Shown here: one piece after another, positions 25,329 to 33,093 of the stretch
Layout of the letters: each line of letters opens with the position of its first letter
How positions within the stretch are numbered: the first letter of the stretch is position 1
Assembly (NCBI RefSeq): GCF_000243235.1
Contig: NZ_JH594605.1
Location: forward strand, 66,660-130,659
DNA: 64,000 bases
DNA from: Gillisia limnaea DSM 15749
Lineage (GTDB): Bacteria > Bacteroidota > Bacteroidia > Flavobacteriales > Flavobacteriaceae
Reading direction: 5' to 3'
Translations under genes and position numbers: made by a program
Notes under the pieces: model-generated
Seen by the model: only the letters and a program-made list of their open reading frames with translations
Database searches by the model: none
What the model was told of the DNA's origin: nothing

Positions 25329-25946
25329 TTAATGTCTTTCCTCCAACACCTTTACAATATCTTTTAAAGTAAAACCTTTCGCCTGTAAAAGTATTAGGTA
25401 ATGAAATAAAAGATCGGCGCTTTCATTTAAGAATAGATCGTCGTTCTCATCTTTTGCTTCAATCACAGTTTCAATAGCTTCCTCCCCTACTTTTTGTGCG
25501 ATTTTATTGATGCCTGCATCAAAAAGAGAAACCACATAACTGGATCTATCCTTACGCAATTCCGGTTTCAGCTCGCTTAGTTTTTTACGTTCTTTAATGA
25601 TCCCTTCCAGCCTGGAAATAAATCCAAAATCCGGATTATTTTCTTCACCCCAACAAGTATCGGTCCCTTTATGGCAGGTTGGTCCCTTCGGATTTACACT
25701 TATAAGCAGCGTGTCATTATCACAGTCGTTTTTAATACTTACCAGTTCGAGATAATTGCCGCTTTCTTCCCCTTTTGTCCAAAGTCTATTTTTTGCTCTG
25801 CTGAAAAAAGTGACTTTTTTGCTTTCATTGGTCTTTAAAAATGCCTCTTCATTCATATACCCCAACATTAAAACATTTTTCGTGGTATTATCCTGAATTA
25901 TTGCGGGTACAAGTCCGTCGTTATTTTTGTTGAATTCTATATTCAT
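25329..25946 (-). CDS. hisIE: Bifunctional phosphoribosyl-AMP cyclohydrolase/phosphoribosyl-ATP pyrophosphohydrolase
   Basis: A 205-residue fusion carrying steps 2 and 3 of histidine biosynthesis. The HisI half (about 1-110) includes VLMLGYMNEEAF, the DCDNDT metal-site stretch and the zinc cysteines of GPTCHKGTDTCWG. The HisE half (about 115-205) has the helical MazG-type motif KVGEEAIETVIEAKDEN. It is the last gene of the his operon, with the terminator directly behind. HisE precedes HisF in the pathway, so pathway order and gene order differ, as usual. Confidence 0.95.
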   Translation of the reverse strand: MNIEFNKNNDGLVPAIIQDNTTKNVLMLGYMNEEAFLKTNESKKVTFFSRAKNRLWTKGEESGNYLELVSIKNDCDNDTLLISVNPKGPTCHKGTDTCWGEENNPDFGFISRLEGIIKERKKLSELKPELRKDRSSYVVSLFDAGINKIAQKVGEEAIETVIEAKDENDDLFLNESADLLFHYLILLQAKGFTLKDIVKVLEERH

Positions 25947-26021
25947 CGATCAATTATATTTTTATATGAGCTATCAGAAGATTGAAAATCTTTCTATATT
26001 TTTTTCCCGGAGCTGAATTTT

Positions 26022-26777
26022 TTAAATCCGTACTTCAATTCCGTCCTTTCGTAGCGCTTCTTTGAGATTTTTTATTTCTATTTCCTTAAAATGAAAAACA
26101 CTTGCTGCCAGGGCTGCATCTGCTTTTCCATCCTTAAAAACATCGCAAAAATGTTGAATATTTCCGGCACCACCGGAAGCGATTATTGGAATATTCAATT
26201 CTGAAGATAATCTGGCCAAAGCTTCGTTTGCGAAACCATCTTTAGTTCCGTCATTATTCATAGAGGTGAACAAAATCTCTCCAGCTCCCCTGCTTTCTAC
26301 TTCCTTTGCCCATTCAAACAAATTTATTTCTGTAGGCACTTTCCCTCCAACCAAATGTACTAACCAGGTTCCATCCACCTGTTTGGCATCTATGGCAACC
26401 GTAATACACTGGCTTCCAAATTTAGCAGCCAGTGTATTGATAAGGTCCGGGTTTTTTACTGCAGAAGAATTTATGGAAACTTTATCGGCCCCATTCTGAA
26501 GCAGAATATCCACATCTTCCACAGAAGAAATTCCTCCACCAACGGTGAATGGAATATTAACTTTTTCAGCCACCCGAAGTACGAGATCTGCCAGAGTTTT
26601 TCGTCGTTCTTCGGTTGCCGAAATATCCAGAAAAACCAATTCATCTGCACCGGATTTCGCATAAATCTCAGCCAGTTCAACCGGATCGCCCGCATCACGT
26701 AAATCGACAAAATTCACCCCTTTAACGGTTCTTCCATTTTTTATATCCAGGCAAGGTATAATTCGTTTTGTAAGCAT
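26022..26777 (-). CDS. hisF: Imidazole glycerol phosphate synthase cyclase subunit
   Basis: A 251-residue beta/alpha barrel. It starts [19 protein letters not shown] with the catalytic Asp at about 11 and has [20 protein letters not shown] (about 77-96), the second catalytic Asp in VAIDAKQ (about 130) and the phosphate-binding IIASGGAG. It uses ammonia from HisH to make IGP and AICAR. Encoded downstream of hisA with a 48-base gap. Confidence 0.95.
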
Positions 26778-26825
26778 TTTTTATAAAAATTAAAAGGTGA
26801 GCATTAAGAATTCAAAGGATAGGTC

Positions 26826-27575
26826 TTAATGTTCATTTTTAGTACTTAATATATAGTTTTCCAACTGTTTCAAACTGATTCTTCCTTCATAGATGGCCTT
26901 TCCAATTATGGTTCCTTCACAACCCATTTCAGCTAATTCCGGAAGTTCATCAAAGGTAGAGATTCCTCCTGAAGCAATAAGGTTAATTGGCTTTTCGCTA
27001 TGTGAAGTTTCCTTCAGTATTCTTTTATATAGTTCAAAAGATGGACCTTCAAGCATTCCGTCTTTAGAAATATCGGTACAAATAACATACTTTACACCCT
27101 CATTTTGATAGTTCTGGATAAATGGAATAAGCTCTTCTTCAGATTCTTCCTGCCAGCCACTTATCGCAACTTTTTCGTTATTGGCATCGGCACCAAGAAT
27201 GATCTTGTCACTTCCAAATTTTTGCACCCATGATTTAAAAATTTCTCTGTCCTTCACCGCAATACTTCCGCCGGTAATTTGCCGGGCACCACACTCAAAA
27301 GCGATTTCCAGATCCTTATCGGACTTCAATCCGCCGCCAAAATCTATCTTCAAGCCGGTTTTAGAAGCGATTTGCTCTAGAATTTTATGATTTACGATAT
27401 GTTTTGATTTTGCCCCATCCAGGTCTACCAAATGCAAATAGCGGATGCCGTGGGCTTCAAATTCCTTTGCTACTTCAAGCGGATTCTCATTGTATATTTT
27501 TTTTGTGCTGTAATCCCCTTTTGAAAGTCGCACGCATTTGCCATCTATGATGTCTATTGCCGGGATAATTCTCAT
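26826..27575 (-). CDS. hisA: Phosphoribosylformimino-5-aminoimidazole carboxamide ribotide isomerase
   Basis: A 249-residue barrel paralogous to His[21 protein letters not shown] with catalytic Asp at 8, [20 protein letters not shown] (about 76-95), [15 protein letters not shown] (second Asp about 128-134) and [14 protein letters not shown]. It performs the Amadori rearrangement of ProFAR to PRFAR. Position between hisH and hisF is normal for Bacteroidota. Confidence 0.95.
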
Positions 27576-27659
27576 TCTTTTAGCTATTAAATCGTTTGAT
27601 TTTAAAATTTAGATTCCGGGTCTCAAATAGAACCACTGATCAATTTCTACATTTTTGGG

Positions 27660-28241
27660 TTAGAGATCTAAAAAATTCTTAAGGATCTTTTCACCGGCCA
27701 CGCTGCTTTTTTCCGGATGGAACTGCACTCCATAAAAATTATCTTTTTTAATGGCTGTGGTAAATTCTACCCCATACTCACTGCTAGCTATGGTTTCCTT
27801 GCATTCCGGAACATAAAAACTATGAACCAGATAAACGTATTCATTCTCAGCAACACCTTCAAACAACTCCGATTTGAGATCATAGATCTTATTCCATCCA
27901 ATTTGGGGAACTTTGACGGTATTATTAAATTTTACCACTTTAGCATGAAAAATACCAAGACCTGTCGTATTTCCTTCTTCTGAAGATTCACACATTAGTT
28001 GCATTCCCAGGCAAATTCCAAGTACGGGTTGTCTTAAAGTTGGAATCACTTTATCTAAACCGGTAGAACGCAACATTCTCATCGCGCTGCTTGCTTCCCC
28101 TACTCCGGGAAAGATCACCTTGTCTGCATTTCTTATTTCCACTTCATCACTGCTTAAAACAGCTTCAAATCCCAATCTTTGGATCGCGAATTTTATACTT
28201 TGAATATTCCCGGCACCATAATTTATTATTGCTATTTTCAT
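27660..28241 (-). CDS. hisH: Imidazole glycerol phosphate synthase glutaminase subunit
   Basis: A 193-residue class I glutamine amidotransferase. The nucleophile Cys lies in VLGICLGMQLM (about 73-83) and the His-x-Glu pair in VQFHPEKSS (about 173-181). It starts KIAIINYGAGNIQSIKFA. It hydrolyses glutamine and channels ammonia into HisF. It follows hisB by 43 bases. Confidence 0.95.
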   Translation of the reverse strand: MKIAIINYGAGNIQSIKFAIQRLGFEAVLSSDEVEIRNADKVIFPGVGEASSAMRMLRSTGLDKVIPTLRQPVLGICLGMQLMCESSEEGNTTGLGIFHAKVVKFNNTVKVPQIGWNKIYDLKSELFEGVAENEYVYLVHSFYVPECKETIASSEYGVEFTTAIKKDNFYGVQFHPEKSSVAGEKILKNFLDL

Positions 28242-28284
28242 TTTTTGTTCTTAAAGATCTTTTTAAACGATCTCACATTGATAA

Positions 28285-29424
28285 TTAGAGCATTCCTTTT
28301 GTTGAGGGCAGGATCATTTTTTCAGTATCACGTTTTACCGACATTTTTATCGCTTTTGCAAATGCTTTAAAGATGGCTTCGATCTTGTGGTGTTCATTGG
28401 TGCCTTCCGCCTTAATATTTAGATTGGCTTTAGCACCATCGGTAAAGGATTTAAAGAAATGATAGAACATTTCCGTAGGCATTTTTCCAACCAGCTCTCT
28501 GTGAAATTCAGCTTCCCAAACCAGCCAGTTTCTTCCTCCAAAATCAATTGCTACCTGCGCCAGGCAGTCATCCATGGGAAGACAGAATCCATAGCGTTCA
28601 ATTCCGAGTTTATTTCCAAGTGCTATACTAAAAACTTCTCCCAGAGCGATGCCTGTATCTTCAATTGTATGATGCTCATCAACCTCCAGGTCCCCTTTTA
28701 CGTTAATTTCAAGATCCATCTGGCCGTGACGTGCAATTTGATCCAACATATGATCGAAAAAAGCGATCCCGGTTGAAATTTCAGACTTACCAGTCCCATC
28801 CAGATTGAGCTTAATAAAAATATCGGTTTCATTGGTCTTGCGTGTAATCATCGCAGTCCGGTCTTTCAGCTTGAGAAACTCATAGATTTTTTTCCAGCTA
28901 TCAGTTCTCAAGACGATACTATTTTCCAATTTTTCCATTTTGGTATTCACTTCTTCACTTCCCAGGTCTTCGTGAGTATCAATAAAGATCCCTTTCCCGC
29001 CAAAGTTAAAAGCAAATTCCATATCGGTTAATCTATCCCCAATCATTAAGGAATTTTCCATATCATATTCCTCATTATTAAGATATTTATTCTCCAGGAG
29101 TCCGATATTTGGCTTACGGTTTGGGGAGTTTTCTTCCGGAAAGGTTCTGTCCATCAATACCTCTTTAAATTCGGCACCTTCGTTGGCAATGGTTTTTATT
29201 ATAAAATTCTGAATACTCCAAAACTTATCTTCAGGATATTTTTCGGTACCAAGCCCGTCCTGATTGGTTACCATAACCAATTCATAATCCAGTTCTTTTC
29301 CAATCTTTGCCATATAAAATAAAGATTCGGGATAGAATTCCAATTTTTCAAGGCTATCAATCTGGTAATCTTCAGGCTCATGGATCAAAGTTCCGTCCCT
29401 GTCAATAAACAATACTTTTTTCAT
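28285..29424 (-). CDS. hisB: Bifunctional histidinol-phosphatase/imidazoleglycerol-phosphate dehydratase
   Basis: A 379-residue fusion. The HAD phosphatase half (about 1-170) has the nucleophile motif [12 protein letters not shown] and MVTNQDG, plus [12 protein letters not shown]; the dehydratase half (about 190-379) has [13 protein letters not shown]-type metal site, [15 protein letters not shown] and [17 protein letters not shown]. It carries steps 6 and 8 of the pathway. Its 134-base upstream gap after hisC contains a sequence nearly identical to the region before a glycosyltransferase gene at 58764, and both proteins begin MKKVL. Confidence 0.95.
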
Positions 29425-29470
29425 CTGTTTATATTATTGTTTTAGTGGTCAATTGTAACATCCTTATTAT
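29411..29470 (-). repeat. 60-bp repeat copy 1 (start of hisB)
   Basis: Covers the first codons and about 46 bases of leader of hisB. It aligns without gaps to 58751-58810, 49 of 60 bases identical by eye. Shared cores are TAAACAGATGAAAAAAGTA around the ATG, ACAATA, and GGATGTTACA at the far end. Confidence 0.7.
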
Positions 29471-29558
29471 TCTTTTTAAGTATGACTTTTAATTCCAACA
29501 TCGGTTTCACTCGGAAAAAAATATTTAGCAACCTATTTATCTCCAATATAGAAGGCCG

Positions 29559-30608
29559 CTAATTTATGGCTTTTAAGGCCGTTATCAAACGGTCGTTTTC
29601 CAAAGCGGTTCCTACCGTTAATCTTAACGTATTTTCACATAATGGCTGGGAGGTCCTGTTTCTAATTACAATCCCCATTTCAAGCAATTCAGAATACCTT
29701 TTAGTTGCATCATCTACCTTTATCAATATAAAATTAGCATCCGAATCATAGATTTTCTGAATATAATCTACATCAAGTAAAGCTTCAAATAAACGTGCTC
29801 TTTCCTTAAGAATATCAGCCACTTCCTGTTTTACTGCTTCCATATTATTAACCCTCTCCAATGCCCGACGCTGACTGAGCTCATTAACATTATACGGCGG
29901 CTTTATTTTATTTAAAATACTTATGATTTCTGCGGAAGCATAACAAATTCCAAGCCTGATTCCTGCCATTCCATAAGCCTTGGAGAGCGTTTGAGTGATC
30001 ACCAAATTTGGATAAGACCGAAGTTTCTTCAACCAGCTTTCCTGTTTTGAGAAATCTATATAGGCTTCGTCAATGACAACCAAACCGCTGAAATTCTCAA
30101 GGATTTCCAAAACCCCTTCTTCTAAAAATGAATTCCCGGTTGGATTGTTTGGGGAACAAAGAAAAATTATTTTACTATTCTTGTCAATGGCCCTTAGAAT
30201 GTTTGAAATATTGAGCTCAAAATCAGCGGTGAGCAGTATTTCCCTATTTTCTACATTATTGATATTAGCCAATACCGCATACATTCCATAGGTTGGTGGC
30301 AGCGTAACCGCATTATCTGTTTTAGGCTCACAAAAAGCCCTGAAAAGAAGATCCAGCACCTCGTCACTTCCATTTCCCAAAAGTATATTCTCCTGAGCTA
30401 CCCCTTTAATTTTTGCGAGTTCCGCTTTTAAAGTTCGTTGTTGGGGATCGGGATACCGGTTCACATCCGTTTGGAATGGATTTTCATTGGCATCCAGAAA
30501 TACCATTTCTGTTCCGGTAGATTGAAATTCGTCCCTTGCAGAAGAATAGGGTCGCAGTTTGGCTACATTAGCTCGAACAAGCCCGTTAAGATCAAAGTTT
30601 GTATTCAT
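29559..30608 (-). CDS. hisC: Histidinol-phosphate aminotransferase
   Basis: A 349-residue PLP-dependent aminotransferase of fold type I. LDANENPFQ (about 33-41) and NRYPDPQQRTLK are the substrate-loop markers, LLGNGSDEVLDLLFRA binds the cofactor phosphate, FLCSPNNPTGN and VVIDEAYIDF (Asp-x-x-Tyr) hold the PLP ring, and TLSKAYGMAGIRLG carries the Schiff-base Lys (about 210). It converts imidazole-acetol phosphate to histidinol phosphate. It starts 26 bases after hisD. Confidence 0.95.
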   Translation of the reverse strand: MNTNFDLNGLVRANVAKLRPYSSARDEFQSTGTEMVFLDANENPFQTDVNRYPDPQQRTLKAELAKIKGVAQENILLGNGSDEVLDLLFRAFCEPKTDNAVTLPPTYGMYAVLANINNVENREILLTADFELNISNILRAIDKNSKIIFLCSPNNPTGNSFLEEGVLEILENFSGLVVIDEAYIDFSKQESWLKKLRSYPNLVITQTLSKAYGMAGIRLGICYASAEIISILNKIKPPYNVNELSQRRALERVNNMEAVKQEVADILKERARLFEALLDVDYIQKIYDSDANFILIKVDDATKRYSELLEMGIVIRNRTSQPLCENTLRLTVGTALENDRLITALKAIN

Positions 30609-30634
30609 GTTGAAAAGTGCGGTTGTGGCTTATA

Positions 30635-31921
30635 TTAATTTTTGATATTTTTTAATCTTAGTGTAACAGCGTTCTTGTGTGCCTGCAAACCCTCTGCTTC
30701 TGCCATCAATTCAATAGCAGGACCTATTTTCCGGATTCCTTCTTCGCTTATTTTCTGAAACGTCATACTCTTCATAAAACTGTCCAGGTTCACGCCGCTA
30801 TATTGTTTGGCGTACCCATTTGTTGGTAAGGTATGATTGGTTCCCGAAGCATAATCCCCTGCACTTTCAGGAGTATAATTGCCTATAAATACAGATCCTG
30901 CATTTTCAATTCCATCTATATAAAAGTTCTCATTTTTAGTACAGATAATAAAATGTTCAGGGCCATATTCATTGATCATTTCTATGGCAAGTTCATCATT
31001 TTCAACAAAGATCAGTTTAGAATTATCGATAGCCTTTTGAGCGACCTCTTTTCGGGGAAGTACAACTATTTGGGATTCAATTTCAGCTTCAACAGCAGAA
31101 ATCAAAGTTTTGGATGTTGAAACAAGAATCACCTGGCTATCGGCTCCATGTTCGGCCTGGCTAAGCAAATCGGAAGCAACAAAAGACGCGTCGGCAGAGT
31201 CATCAGCCACCACAAGTAATTCTGAAGGTCCTGCAGGCATATCAATCGCTACATTATGTTTGGTCGCAAGTTGTTTGGCAACGGTTACAAACTGATTTCC
31301 CGGTCCAAAGATTTTATAAACTTTTGGAACTGTTTCCGTTCCAAAGGTCATAGCTCCTATTGCCTGGATCCCGCCAATTTTAAATATTTTAGTAACTCCG
31401 CTTAAGGCTGCAGTGTATAAGATCGCAGGATGTACTTTTCCTTCTTTGTTTGGCGGTGTGCACAGGATAATCTCCTTGCAGCTGGCAATATTCGCAGGGG
31501 TGGCGAGCATTAATATTGAAGAAAAAAGCGGTGCCGTTCCTCCGGGAATATAAAGTCCAACCTTTTGAATGGGACGCTTTTCCTGCCAGCAATCTACTCC
31601 CGGGCTGGTTGTAACACTTATTTTTTCTGATTTTTGGGCAGAATGGAATTTTTCTATATTGGATTTAGCCAAAGCGATTGCCTCTTTCAACTCATTAGAA
31701 ACAAGGGATCCTGCTTCCTTTATCTCTTTTGAACTCACTTTGAAATCATTCAGTTTTACTCCATCAAAAAGATCGGTGTATTTTGATATAGCCAAATCCC
31801 CTTTAAGTTTTATTTCAGAAAAAACCTCGGTAACAGTAGCTTCAATTTCATCAACAGTTTTGGTTGGGCGCTCTAAGATCCTGTTCCAATCTTCTTTTGC
31901 CGGATTGAATATTTTTTGCAT
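30635..31921 (-). CDS. hisD: Histidinol dehydrogenase
   Basis: A 428-residue zinc enzyme oxidising histidinol to histidine with NAD. Signatures are RPIQKVGLYIPGGTAPLFSS (about 115-134), FGPGNQFVTVAKQ and IDMPAGPSELLVVAD (about 226-240), then the zinc-site LLSQAEHGADSQVIL (Gln and His about 253-256) and YGPEHFIIC with catalytic Glu/His. It is the second gene of the operon, 146 bases after hisG. Both catalytic steps occur in one active site. Confidence 0.95.
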   Translation of the reverse strand: MQKIFNPAKEDWNRILERPTKTVDEIEATVTEVFSEIKLKGDLAISKYTDLFDGVKLNDFKVSSKEIKEAGSLVSNELKEAIALAKSNIEKFHSAQKSEKISVTTSPGVDCWQEKRPIQKVGLYIPGGTAPLFSSILMLATPANIASCKEIILCTPPNKEGKVHPAILYTAALSGVTKIFKIGGIQAIGAMTFGTETVPKVYKIFGPGNQFVTVAKQLATKHNVAIDMPAGPSELLVVADDSADASFVASDLLSQAEHGADSQVILVSTSKTLISAVEAEIESQIVVLPRKEVAQKAIDNSKLIFVENDELAIEMINEYGPEHFIICTKNENFYIDGIENAGSVFIGNYTPESAGDYASGTNHTLPTNGYAKQYSGVNLDSFMKSMTFQKISEEGIRKIGPAIELMAEAEGLQAHKNAVTLRLKNIKN

Positions 31922-32067: not shown

Positions 32068-32931
32068 TTACATTACCATTTTCTCGATTGGAGCTACCAG
32101 AATTCCTTCAGCTCCATTTTGCTTCAATTCATCTATAACCTCCCAAAAACGCTCTTCGTTGATAACGGTATGCAAGGAACTCCAGCCTTCTTCTACCAGC
32201 GGCAAAACCGTAGGACTGCGCATTCCGGGTAATAATTTAATTACGTTATTCAATTTGTCATTGGGTACGTTCATTAAAATATATTTGGAAGTTCGCGCAT
32301 TAAGCACAGAATTGAGACGGAATTGCAATTTTTCAAGTATTAATTTCCTTTCGCTGGAAATTAGTGGAGAAATTGCCAACACCGCTTCACTTTTCAGCAT
32401 TACTTCCACTTCTTTCAAATTGTTTTTAAATAAAGTGCTCCCGCTTGAAACGATATCACAAATTGCATCTGCCAAGCCTATGCTGGGCGCTATCTCTACA
32501 GAACCATTTATGATATGAAGCTCAGCAGAGATACCCTTTTCGGTTAAAAAAGCATTCACTGTATTAGGATAGGAAGTAGCGATTTTCTTCCCGTCCAAAT
32601 CCATGATACCGTTGTATTTCATAGACTTTGGAACGGCAAGTGAAACCCGGCACTTTGAAAATCCGAGTTTTTCGCCCTTGATAATATCATCCCCTTTTTC
32701 CACAAGGACGTTTTCACCCAGAATTGCTACATCCACAACCCCGTCTCTTAAATATTGTGGGATATCGCCATTTCTAAGATATAATACTTCCAAAGGAAAA
32801 TTCCTTGCCGATGCTTTTAGCTGCTCTTTTCCATTATCTATAGAAATTCCTGCATCCTTTAAAATTTGAAGAGAATCTTCATTTAGCCTCCCGCTTTTTT
32901 GGATTGCGATTCGTAATTTTTCGTTGCTCAT
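32068..32931 (-). CDS. hisG: ATP phosphoribosyltransferase, long form
   Basis: A 287-residue HisG. The catalytic core begins MSNEKLRIAIQKSGRLNED and includes DVAILGENVLVEKGDDI and the PRPP loop ADAICDIVSSGSTLFKN (about 152-168). A C-terminal ferredoxin-like regulatory domain (about 210-287) with SPTVLPLVEEGWSSLHTVIN marks the long, histidine-inhibited hexameric form, so no HisZ partner is needed. First structural gene behind an attenuator. An in-frame ATG at 32958 lies in the terminator tail, so I use 32931. Confidence 0.95.
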   Translation of the reverse strand: MSNEKLRIAIQKSGRLNEDSLQILKDAGISIDNGKEQLKASARNFPLEVLYLRNGDIPQYLRDGVVDVAILGENVLVEKGDDIIKGEKLGFSKCRVSLAVPKSMKYNGIMDLDGKKIATSYPNTVNAFLTEKGISAELHIINGSVEIAPSIGLADAICDIVSSGSTLFKNNLKEVEVMLKSEAVLAISPLISSERKLILEKLQFRLNSVLNARTSKYILMNVPNDKLNNVIKLLPGMRSPTVLPLVEEGWSSLHTVINEERFWEVIDELKQNGAEGILVAPIEKMVM

Positions 32932-32958: not shown

Positions 32959-32991
32959 TAAAAAAACCCGTTCGAGTTACTCAAACGGGTT
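32959..32991 (-). terminator. Attenuator terminator of the his operon
   Basis: Arms AACCCGTT (32965-32972) and AACGGGTT (32984-32991), extended by GAGT/ACTC inside, followed on the minus strand by a run of seven T (32960-32966, overlapping the stem base). It lies between the His-rich leader peptide and hisG, 28 bases before the hisG ATG, as expected of a transcription attenuator. Confidence 0.88.
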
Positions 32992-33023
32992 TTAAAATAT
33001 GTTGAAAATACTACATATCAAAT

Positions 33024-33077
33024 TCACCTCGCCTGAGCGCAGTACTGAAGATGATGATGTAGTTGATTTTTTTCCAT
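33024..33077 (-). CDS. hisL: his operon leader peptide (17 residues, three His)
   Basis: Minus-strand frame from ATG at 33077 to TGA at 33024-33026, encoding MEKNQLHHHLQYCAQAR. Three adjacent CAT codons sit 7-9 codons in, ahead of a terminator hairpin 33 bases downstream of its stop. By the classical model, ribosomes stalling at the His codons when His-tRNA is scarce would let an alternative structure form and let RNA polymerase read into hisG; the alternative structure was not drawn in detail here. A -7 promoter element lies 8 bases upstream. Confidence 0.85.
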   Translation of the reverse strand: MEKNQLHHHLQYCAQAR

Positions 33078-33085
33078 TACGATGA

Positions 33086-33093
33086 CAAATCTA
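33086..33093 (-). promoter_or_regulatory. -7 promoter element of the his operon
   Basis: Reads TAGATTTG on the minus strand, matching TAnnTTTG, ending 8 bases before the leader-peptide ATG. The transcript would begin very close to that ATG. No -33 at normal spacing; a TTG lies 12 bases upstream. Confidence 0.6.

Follow-up and report, generated by a model that had tools for sequence, protein, structure and literature searches.

Among the described attenuators of histidine operons, enterobacterial hisL (Rfam RF00514) consists of a short leader ORF with a run of His codons upstream of hisG, and its mechanism uses mutually exclusive protector, antiterminator and terminator hairpins. The E. coli leader contains seven His codons. 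A comparative survey of attenuation by Lopatovskaya et al. from 2010 reportedly covers Bacteroidetes. In this phylum, the same logic is represented by the Bacteroid-trp RNA (RF01692), which has Trp codons; a search for the term 'leader peptide' in the main text of the paper listing it (PMC2864571) gave no occurrence. In Flavobacterium psychrophilum, hisG was described as preceded by a structured element, which occurs in further genera of Flavobacteriaceae and gives no Rfam hit, and strong clues were reported for leader-peptide attenuation before amino-acid biosynthesis operons (Guerin et al. 2021, PMC9723704). An earlier note on the locus studied here regarded such attenuation as best known from proteobacterial his operons, which is fair but passes over the flavobacterial precedent. 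In the open-access literature, searched by title and start of abstract and with most subscription journals outside its scope, no report of a Bacteroidota his leader peptide besides PMC9723704 was found, and in passages of a 2021 study of his genes in Bacteroidota (PMC8305728) attenuation is brought up a single time, in connection with S. enterica and E. coli. Further, the trpL attenuator transcript of S. meliloti is described as starting at the leader ATG, i.e. as a leaderless leader mRNA (PMC7298713), and mRNAs of Bacteroidota are described as lacking Shine-Dalgarno sequences (PMC6847099).

The locus lies on the minus strand of the window, a stretch of 64,000 nt from Gillisia limnaea DSM 15749, and comprises the following features:

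33086-33093, minus strand: -7 promoter box TAGATTTG (consensus TAnnTTTG), read from the sequence
33078-33083, minus strand: predicted transcription start region, deduced from the position of the box (5'UTR of about 1-6 nt; 4 nt if +1 is 33081)
33024-33077, minus strand: leader peptide gene of 17 codons, MEKNQLHHHLQYCAQAR, from the sequence and 80/80 relatives
33010-33063, minus strand: protector hairpin, which encloses the 5' arm of the antiterminator (fold and covariation)
33051-33059, minus strand: control codons CAT CAT CAT (three consecutive His), from the sequence
33026-33038, minus strand: 5' arm of the antiterminator, GCUCAGGCG-A-GGU, at the end of the leader gene (fold)
32979-32990, minus strand: 3' arm of the antiterminator, ACCCGUUUGAGU, overlapping the 5' arm of the terminator (fold)
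32960-32993, minus strand: intrinsic terminator, stem 32993-32980 with 32976-32963, T-run 32966-32960 (folds)
32068-32931, minus strand: hisG (ATP phosphoribosyltransferase), first gene of the operon (TIGR00070 and TIGR03455 over cut-off)
25329-31921, minus strand: hisD, hisC, hisB, hisH, hisA, hisF and hisIE (ORFs, each with an NCBIfam model over cut-off)

On direct reading, every part and distance given in the earlier note proved correct: the 17-codon frame with its CAT CAT CAT runs from 33077 to 33024, the spacer between the TAGATTTG box and the ATG is 8 nt, and the gap from the leader TGA (33026-33024) to the stem of the hairpin with the T-run is 33 nt. The terminator hairpin reads ACCCGTTTGAG-TAA-CTCGAACGGGT with one wobble pair, followed by T7 ending at 32960, and the hisG ATG (32931) lies downstream of it. 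According to the NCBIfam models, the genes that follow form a full eight-gene his operon, hisG-D-C-B-H-A-F-IE, with a bifunctional hisB.

Like hisL, the window leader is a short ORF with a His-codon run upstream of hisG, but it has three His codons, gives no match to the Rfam His_leader model and, since hardly any 5'UTR is predicted, leaves no room for a Shine-Dalgarno site. It shows no evident sequence relation to Bacteroid-trp, of which the host genome contains one copy with a WWW leader and an equally short distance between promoter and leader ATG. With the element of Guerin et al., as far as described in that source, it shares being a structured 5' element upstream of hisG in flavobacteria; the fold, the covariation test, the box spacing and the extension beyond the family are added here. 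S. meliloti trpL differs in belonging to another phylum, in being a Trp leader and in having a 5' end that is stated from experiment. The window element is a well-supported new case of a known kind of attenuator, with a 5' end that is unusual but not unprecedented.

Folding was evaluated against dinucleotide shuffles. From the ATG to past the terminator (33077-32945), the leader folds at -38.5 kcal/mol (z = -5.2), and the terminator-containing stretch 33025-32955 reaches z = -5.5. Positions 33038-33026 pair with 32990-32979 in an antiterminator of -21.5 kcal/mol (z = -2.95; folded without the 5' part up to and beyond the His codons and without the end of the terminator stem). As both use the same arm, antiterminator and terminator pairings are mutually exclusive. 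The earlier note had staked its proposal on an antiterminator being possible, and the check for an alternative hairpin showed that one folds. When the 5' part is present, ACUACAU (33063-33057), which spans the first His codon, forms pairs with AUGUAGU (33016-33010); pairs of 33055-33052 with 33020-33017 and inner pairs complete the protector hairpin. This arrangement of protector, antiterminator and terminator is the classical geometry. The 5' arm of the antiterminator starts 12 nt after the last His codon. Given the usual ribosome footprint, a ribosome whose A site is occupied by a His codon would have its edge approximately 3-9 nt short of this arm, and a ribosome at the stop codon would cover it.

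To compare the leader with those of relatives, a HisG search was used, from which 80 loci in named records were taken (best 80 of 557, some of them metagenome bins), including Salegentibacter, Zunongwangia, Christiangramia, Gillisia, Salinimicrobium, Maribacter, Zobellia, Arenibacter, Allomuricauda/Flagellimonas and others. The arrangement sought in these relatives was present in all of them, with leader and terminator found at 80/80 loci (best 80 of 557). One leader with an interrupted T-tract (L042) was missed by a strict pattern, and its stem is present in the alignment (A1, 81 leaders); in some relatives the unbroken T-run after the stem comprises just 3-4 T. The His codons, on whose conservation the earlier note also relied, are conserved in 81/81 leaders, the longest run being three codons in 44, four in 34, five in two and two in one. 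This recurrence bears on another explanation, in which the hairpin does no more than terminate the upstream gene and the short His ORF is a chance frame. A same-strand SPFH/HflC-like gene, matched below cut-off only (ORF end 33146), does end 68 nt upstream of the ATG of the leader, and gaps between genes often contain intrinsic terminators, but the leader sits between promoter box and terminator, and leader and terminator are not due to chance given that His codons, antiterminator and terminator recur in 80/80 relatives. We give this explanation hardly any credence.

Alignment A1 was further used to examine the helices. The terminator was the sole structure that RNAalifold recovered, as the competing folds have an arm in common; the remaining helices were specified by name and tested with slid and shuffled controls. 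The motif CCCGTTTGAG, part of the 3' arm of the antiterminator, is invariant in 81/81 rows. Four other copies of CCCGTTTGAG in the host genome were inspected and discarded, as none has a leader arrangement. Four core antiterminator pairs are predicted in 81/81 leaders, and as a named helix the antiterminator has 94.5% of its cells paired versus 26-52% when slid, with two internal mismatches in five Salinimicrobium leaders (L018-L021, L023). Since the terminator arm does not vary among the 81 close relatives, the antiterminator shows no covariation there (zero both-side changes, as in the shuffles), and within the clade this helix is backed by complementarity only. The protector hairpin does covary, with 79 both-side-changed cells versus 32.8 in shuffles and a score of 0.262 versus 0.175 (0/500 shuffles as high), counts that are inflated by relatedness and refer to a structure drawn from the same 81 sequences. 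The picture was the same in a second register. Sliding the 3' side by +1 to +3 reduced the both-side cells to 58-60, the score to at most 0.111 and the pairing to at most 45.9% as compared to 82.5% unslid. In five of the 81 leaders (L009, L022, L036, L041, L051), the usual AQAR-type end of the peptide is lost owing to a shifted frame or a premature stop, whereas all 81 match a loose pattern of the RNA element; what is conserved is therefore the RNA and not the peptide.

An invariant terminator arm and a nearly invariant element at the stop region in 81 leaders could also reflect binding, i.e. a leader RNA (riboswitch, T-box or target of an RNA-binding regulator) in which the terminator is operated by a protein or ligand and the leader is translated only incidentally. 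However, none of the Rfam families attains its gathering score in the window, and neither T-box nor His_leader (RF00514) appears between 32900 and 33200 at E values up to 10. Matches at relaxed threshold, e.g. PyrR and L10 leader, were dismissed as weak and far below gathering scores. In addition, the His codons are the constant feature, and the arms of other families differ in sequence yet pair (see below). Control by a bound protein or ligand is thus considered very improbable. As the window yields no Rfam model at threshold, A1 or a similar alignment could serve as the seed of a new one.

The distribution of the leader was surveyed in two ways. First, covariance model R1 was applied to 296 genomes of the order. 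Counted among the rows listed, 67/296 genomes reached E < 1e-9: 48 of the 50 same-family genomes with a listed match, and 19 genomes of families f2, f5, f7 and f15. The 20 unmatched genomes listed include none of the same family (134 further unmatched genomes stand outside that list). In a run on 395 genomes of the phylum, two strong matches were obtained outside the order (G431 and G521). The raw tallies of 142/296 for the order and 115/395 for the phylum were set aside as overstated, weak matches being often ordinary terminators. Regions around weaker matches were without an HH leader, by the rule used, in 15/40 cases, a count that includes one mis-set region (L146) and one that holds a leader with non-consecutive His codons (L138). 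Four weak matches (L131, L136, L139, L140) were discarded as his leaders, no His leader being present at them. Two different his leaders, with box spacings of 19 nt (long) and 7 nt (short), occur in a single assembly of family f15 (G054; L121 and L122), which could be a mixed bin.

Second, 60 regions upstream of hisG, roughly one per genus, were picked from genomes positive for HisG (PF01634; present in 138/158 sampled genomes). A His-rich short ORF preceded hisG in 40/60 regions on the sense strand versus 1/60 on the opposite strand, which likewise speaks against a chance ORF; at least four of the 40 are doubtful (L187, L216, L220, L232). Families without such an ORF among the 60 regions, by the rule used, include f27, f28, f30, f32, f35, f43 and f45. 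A terminator-like hairpin accompanied 27/40 of the phylum leaders, below -8 kcal/mol in 24; no terminator was found in 13/40, among them 9/9 of family f38, and in family f17 none of four leaders had one below -8 kcal/mol. As judged from these sequences, the His leader extends beyond the Flavobacteriaceae, to 40/60 of the sampled hisG regions with some doubtful cases. The comparison shows a wide distribution, within Bacteroidota, of histidine leader peptides that have the anatomy of an attenuator.

The nine f38 loci with a His-rich leader ORF before hisG (L186, L188, L192, L194, L197, L215, L221, L225, L231) have peculiarities of their own. Six of the nine leaders are read from GTG by the rule used, and five start 4-5 nt after a TAnnTTT box (four GTG, one ATG). 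An intrinsic terminator was looked for between leader and hisG and found in 0/9, and the 80 nt past the leader stop average 24% C and 8% G. The C-rich, G-poor stretch in leaders lacking an intrinsic terminator suggests that Rho may have taken the place of the terminator, an idea that we rate as unlikely.

Pairing was then compared across families in 44 leaders by hybridising in silico the stop-codon region with its own terminator 5' arm and with the arms of other families. The set consisted of seven leaders from the window set, 15 from the order sample (13 from f2, f3, f5, f7 and f15, two from f1) and 22 of the 40 phylum leaders, 18 being excluded for lack of a terminator (13) or as weak or doubtful (L207, L209, L216, L220, L232). 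Mean pairing energy was -12.3 kcal/mol with the own arm versus -8.3 kcal/mol with foreign arms, and 0/5000 permutations were as good. Examples are GCAGGUAG with CUACCUG (L193), GGCAGCUUUUU with AAAAAGGCUUGCC (L218) and CAAGUGAG with CUCGCUUG (L132). The contrast is blunted as many arms share C-rich cores: only in 9/44 leaders did no foreign arm equal the own arm, in five (L210, L219, L124, L128, L024) more than one third of the foreign arms were at least equal, and for the window leader 6/34 foreign arms were at least as good. Across families, the compared sequences thus indicate that the leader sequence has been replaced while pairing was kept, on average; the switch retains its pairing logic while its sequence changes. 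Taken together, the own-versus-foreign data are the strongest evidence for the switch.

The element combines a His-codon run in a short leader ORF, a terminator, an antiterminator exclusive with it and a protector or pause hairpin over the control codons. With the antiterminator fold in place and the His codons conserved, the proposal of histidine attenuation is supported, and the element is very probably a ribosome-mediated transcription attenuator of the his operon that responds to histidine supply. From these parts, their exclusive pairings and their conservation we infer the following course. RNA polymerase would start a few nucleotides 5' of the leader AUG, and a ribosome would load at once. 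When charged His-tRNA is scarce, it would stall on CAU CAU CAU, open the protector hairpin and leave the arm 33038-33026 free to pair with ACCCGUUUGAGU; the antiterminator would form and hisG-IE be transcribed. With plentiful histidine, the ribosome would reach UGA (33026-33024) and cover the arm, so that the terminator forms. If no ribosome is loaded, the protector hairpin would hide the arm, and transcription would stop as well.

The start of transcription is predicted from the promoter box. In F. psychrophilum, for which starts were mapped, the TAnnTTTG box is placed at -12 to -5 (PMC9723704). At least five of six box bases are found 6-9 nt before the ATG in 80/81 leaders, the remaining row being ambiguous, and all six in 44 of the 81. 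Combined with the mapped position, this spacing predicts 5'UTRs of 2-5 nt, and for the window approximately 4 nt with +1 near 33081. The transcript of the window leader therefore probably starts within 6 nt of the AUG, as far as box positions can tell. The earlier suggestion of an almost leaderless transcript thus holds at the level of the box, as a prediction of the 5' end and as a trait of a clade rather than of the attenuator. Alternatively, attenuation could be real with a functional transcript that begins further upstream, in which case the leader would not be near-leaderless. The -33 TTTG that the TAGATTTG box would lead one to expect (consensus from PMC7366714) was not seen in the window, and the boxes of genus g2, which belongs to the same family, lie 17-36 nt before the his leader ATG, both of which favour such an upstream start; the spacing in 80/81 clade members and a box 5 nt before the ATG of the trp leader in the same genome stand against it, and we judge it rather improbable. 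The g2 boxes also rule out a universal near-leaderless rule: short spacing is the trait of one clade and is missing from this genus.

The spacing was also compared with that at other genes. Leaderless mRNAs are reported to make up only 5.5% in F. psychrophilum (PMC9723704), and in B. thetaiotaomicron approximately 3.7% of 5'UTRs are below 10 nt (PMC7366714). In the host genome, a box lies no more than 120 nt upstream of 33/162 ORFs that have free space before them, with 13 boxes at 15-24 nt from the start and six at 4-9 nt, the latter number being an upper bound as the first ATG was taken as start; short spacing is accordingly not unique to the his leader. The host trp leader with the box 5 nt before its ATG is MKNNTANTWWWNSLRQHNVK (Bacteroid-trp; L086, G000:C2:2733121-2733240, minus strand). 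Among 26 genomes with both his and trp leaders, spacing was short at both in six (G000, G039, G102, G109, G133, G167) and at neither in 17, two of which (G079, G138) have no exact his box within 60 nt. A short his with a long trp spacing occurred in 0/26, and a short trp without a short his spacing in three (G163; G030, with no his box found; G072, where the assignment depends on the ATG used). As the 26 genomes are related, the short spacing is a clade trait and not independent evidence.

A bolder proposal is that the unlinked his and trp attenuators of one flavobacterial clade are near-leaderless as a rule, with starts 0-5 nt before the AUG, and that Rho replaced the terminator in f38; we would lean somewhat against it in this combined form. 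If true, the ribosome would board the 5' end right as the RNA leaves the polymerase, and no ribosome-binding site would be needed to couple translation to transcription. The very short predicted 5'UTR would offer a simple natural system for testing ribosome loading on near-leaderless transcripts in Bacteroidota.

Finally, the ORFs listed for the host genome were inspected for leaders of other amino-acid genes. No obvious leader was seen for ilvD. Upstream of the aspartate kinase fusion gene (thrA), just above position 378700 of G000:C1 (minus strand), a leader-like ORF ending in MSISTFTTITPLG with Ile and Thr codons was noted (L264), and a box-like TACTTTTA is located 17 nt before its upstream in-frame ATG.
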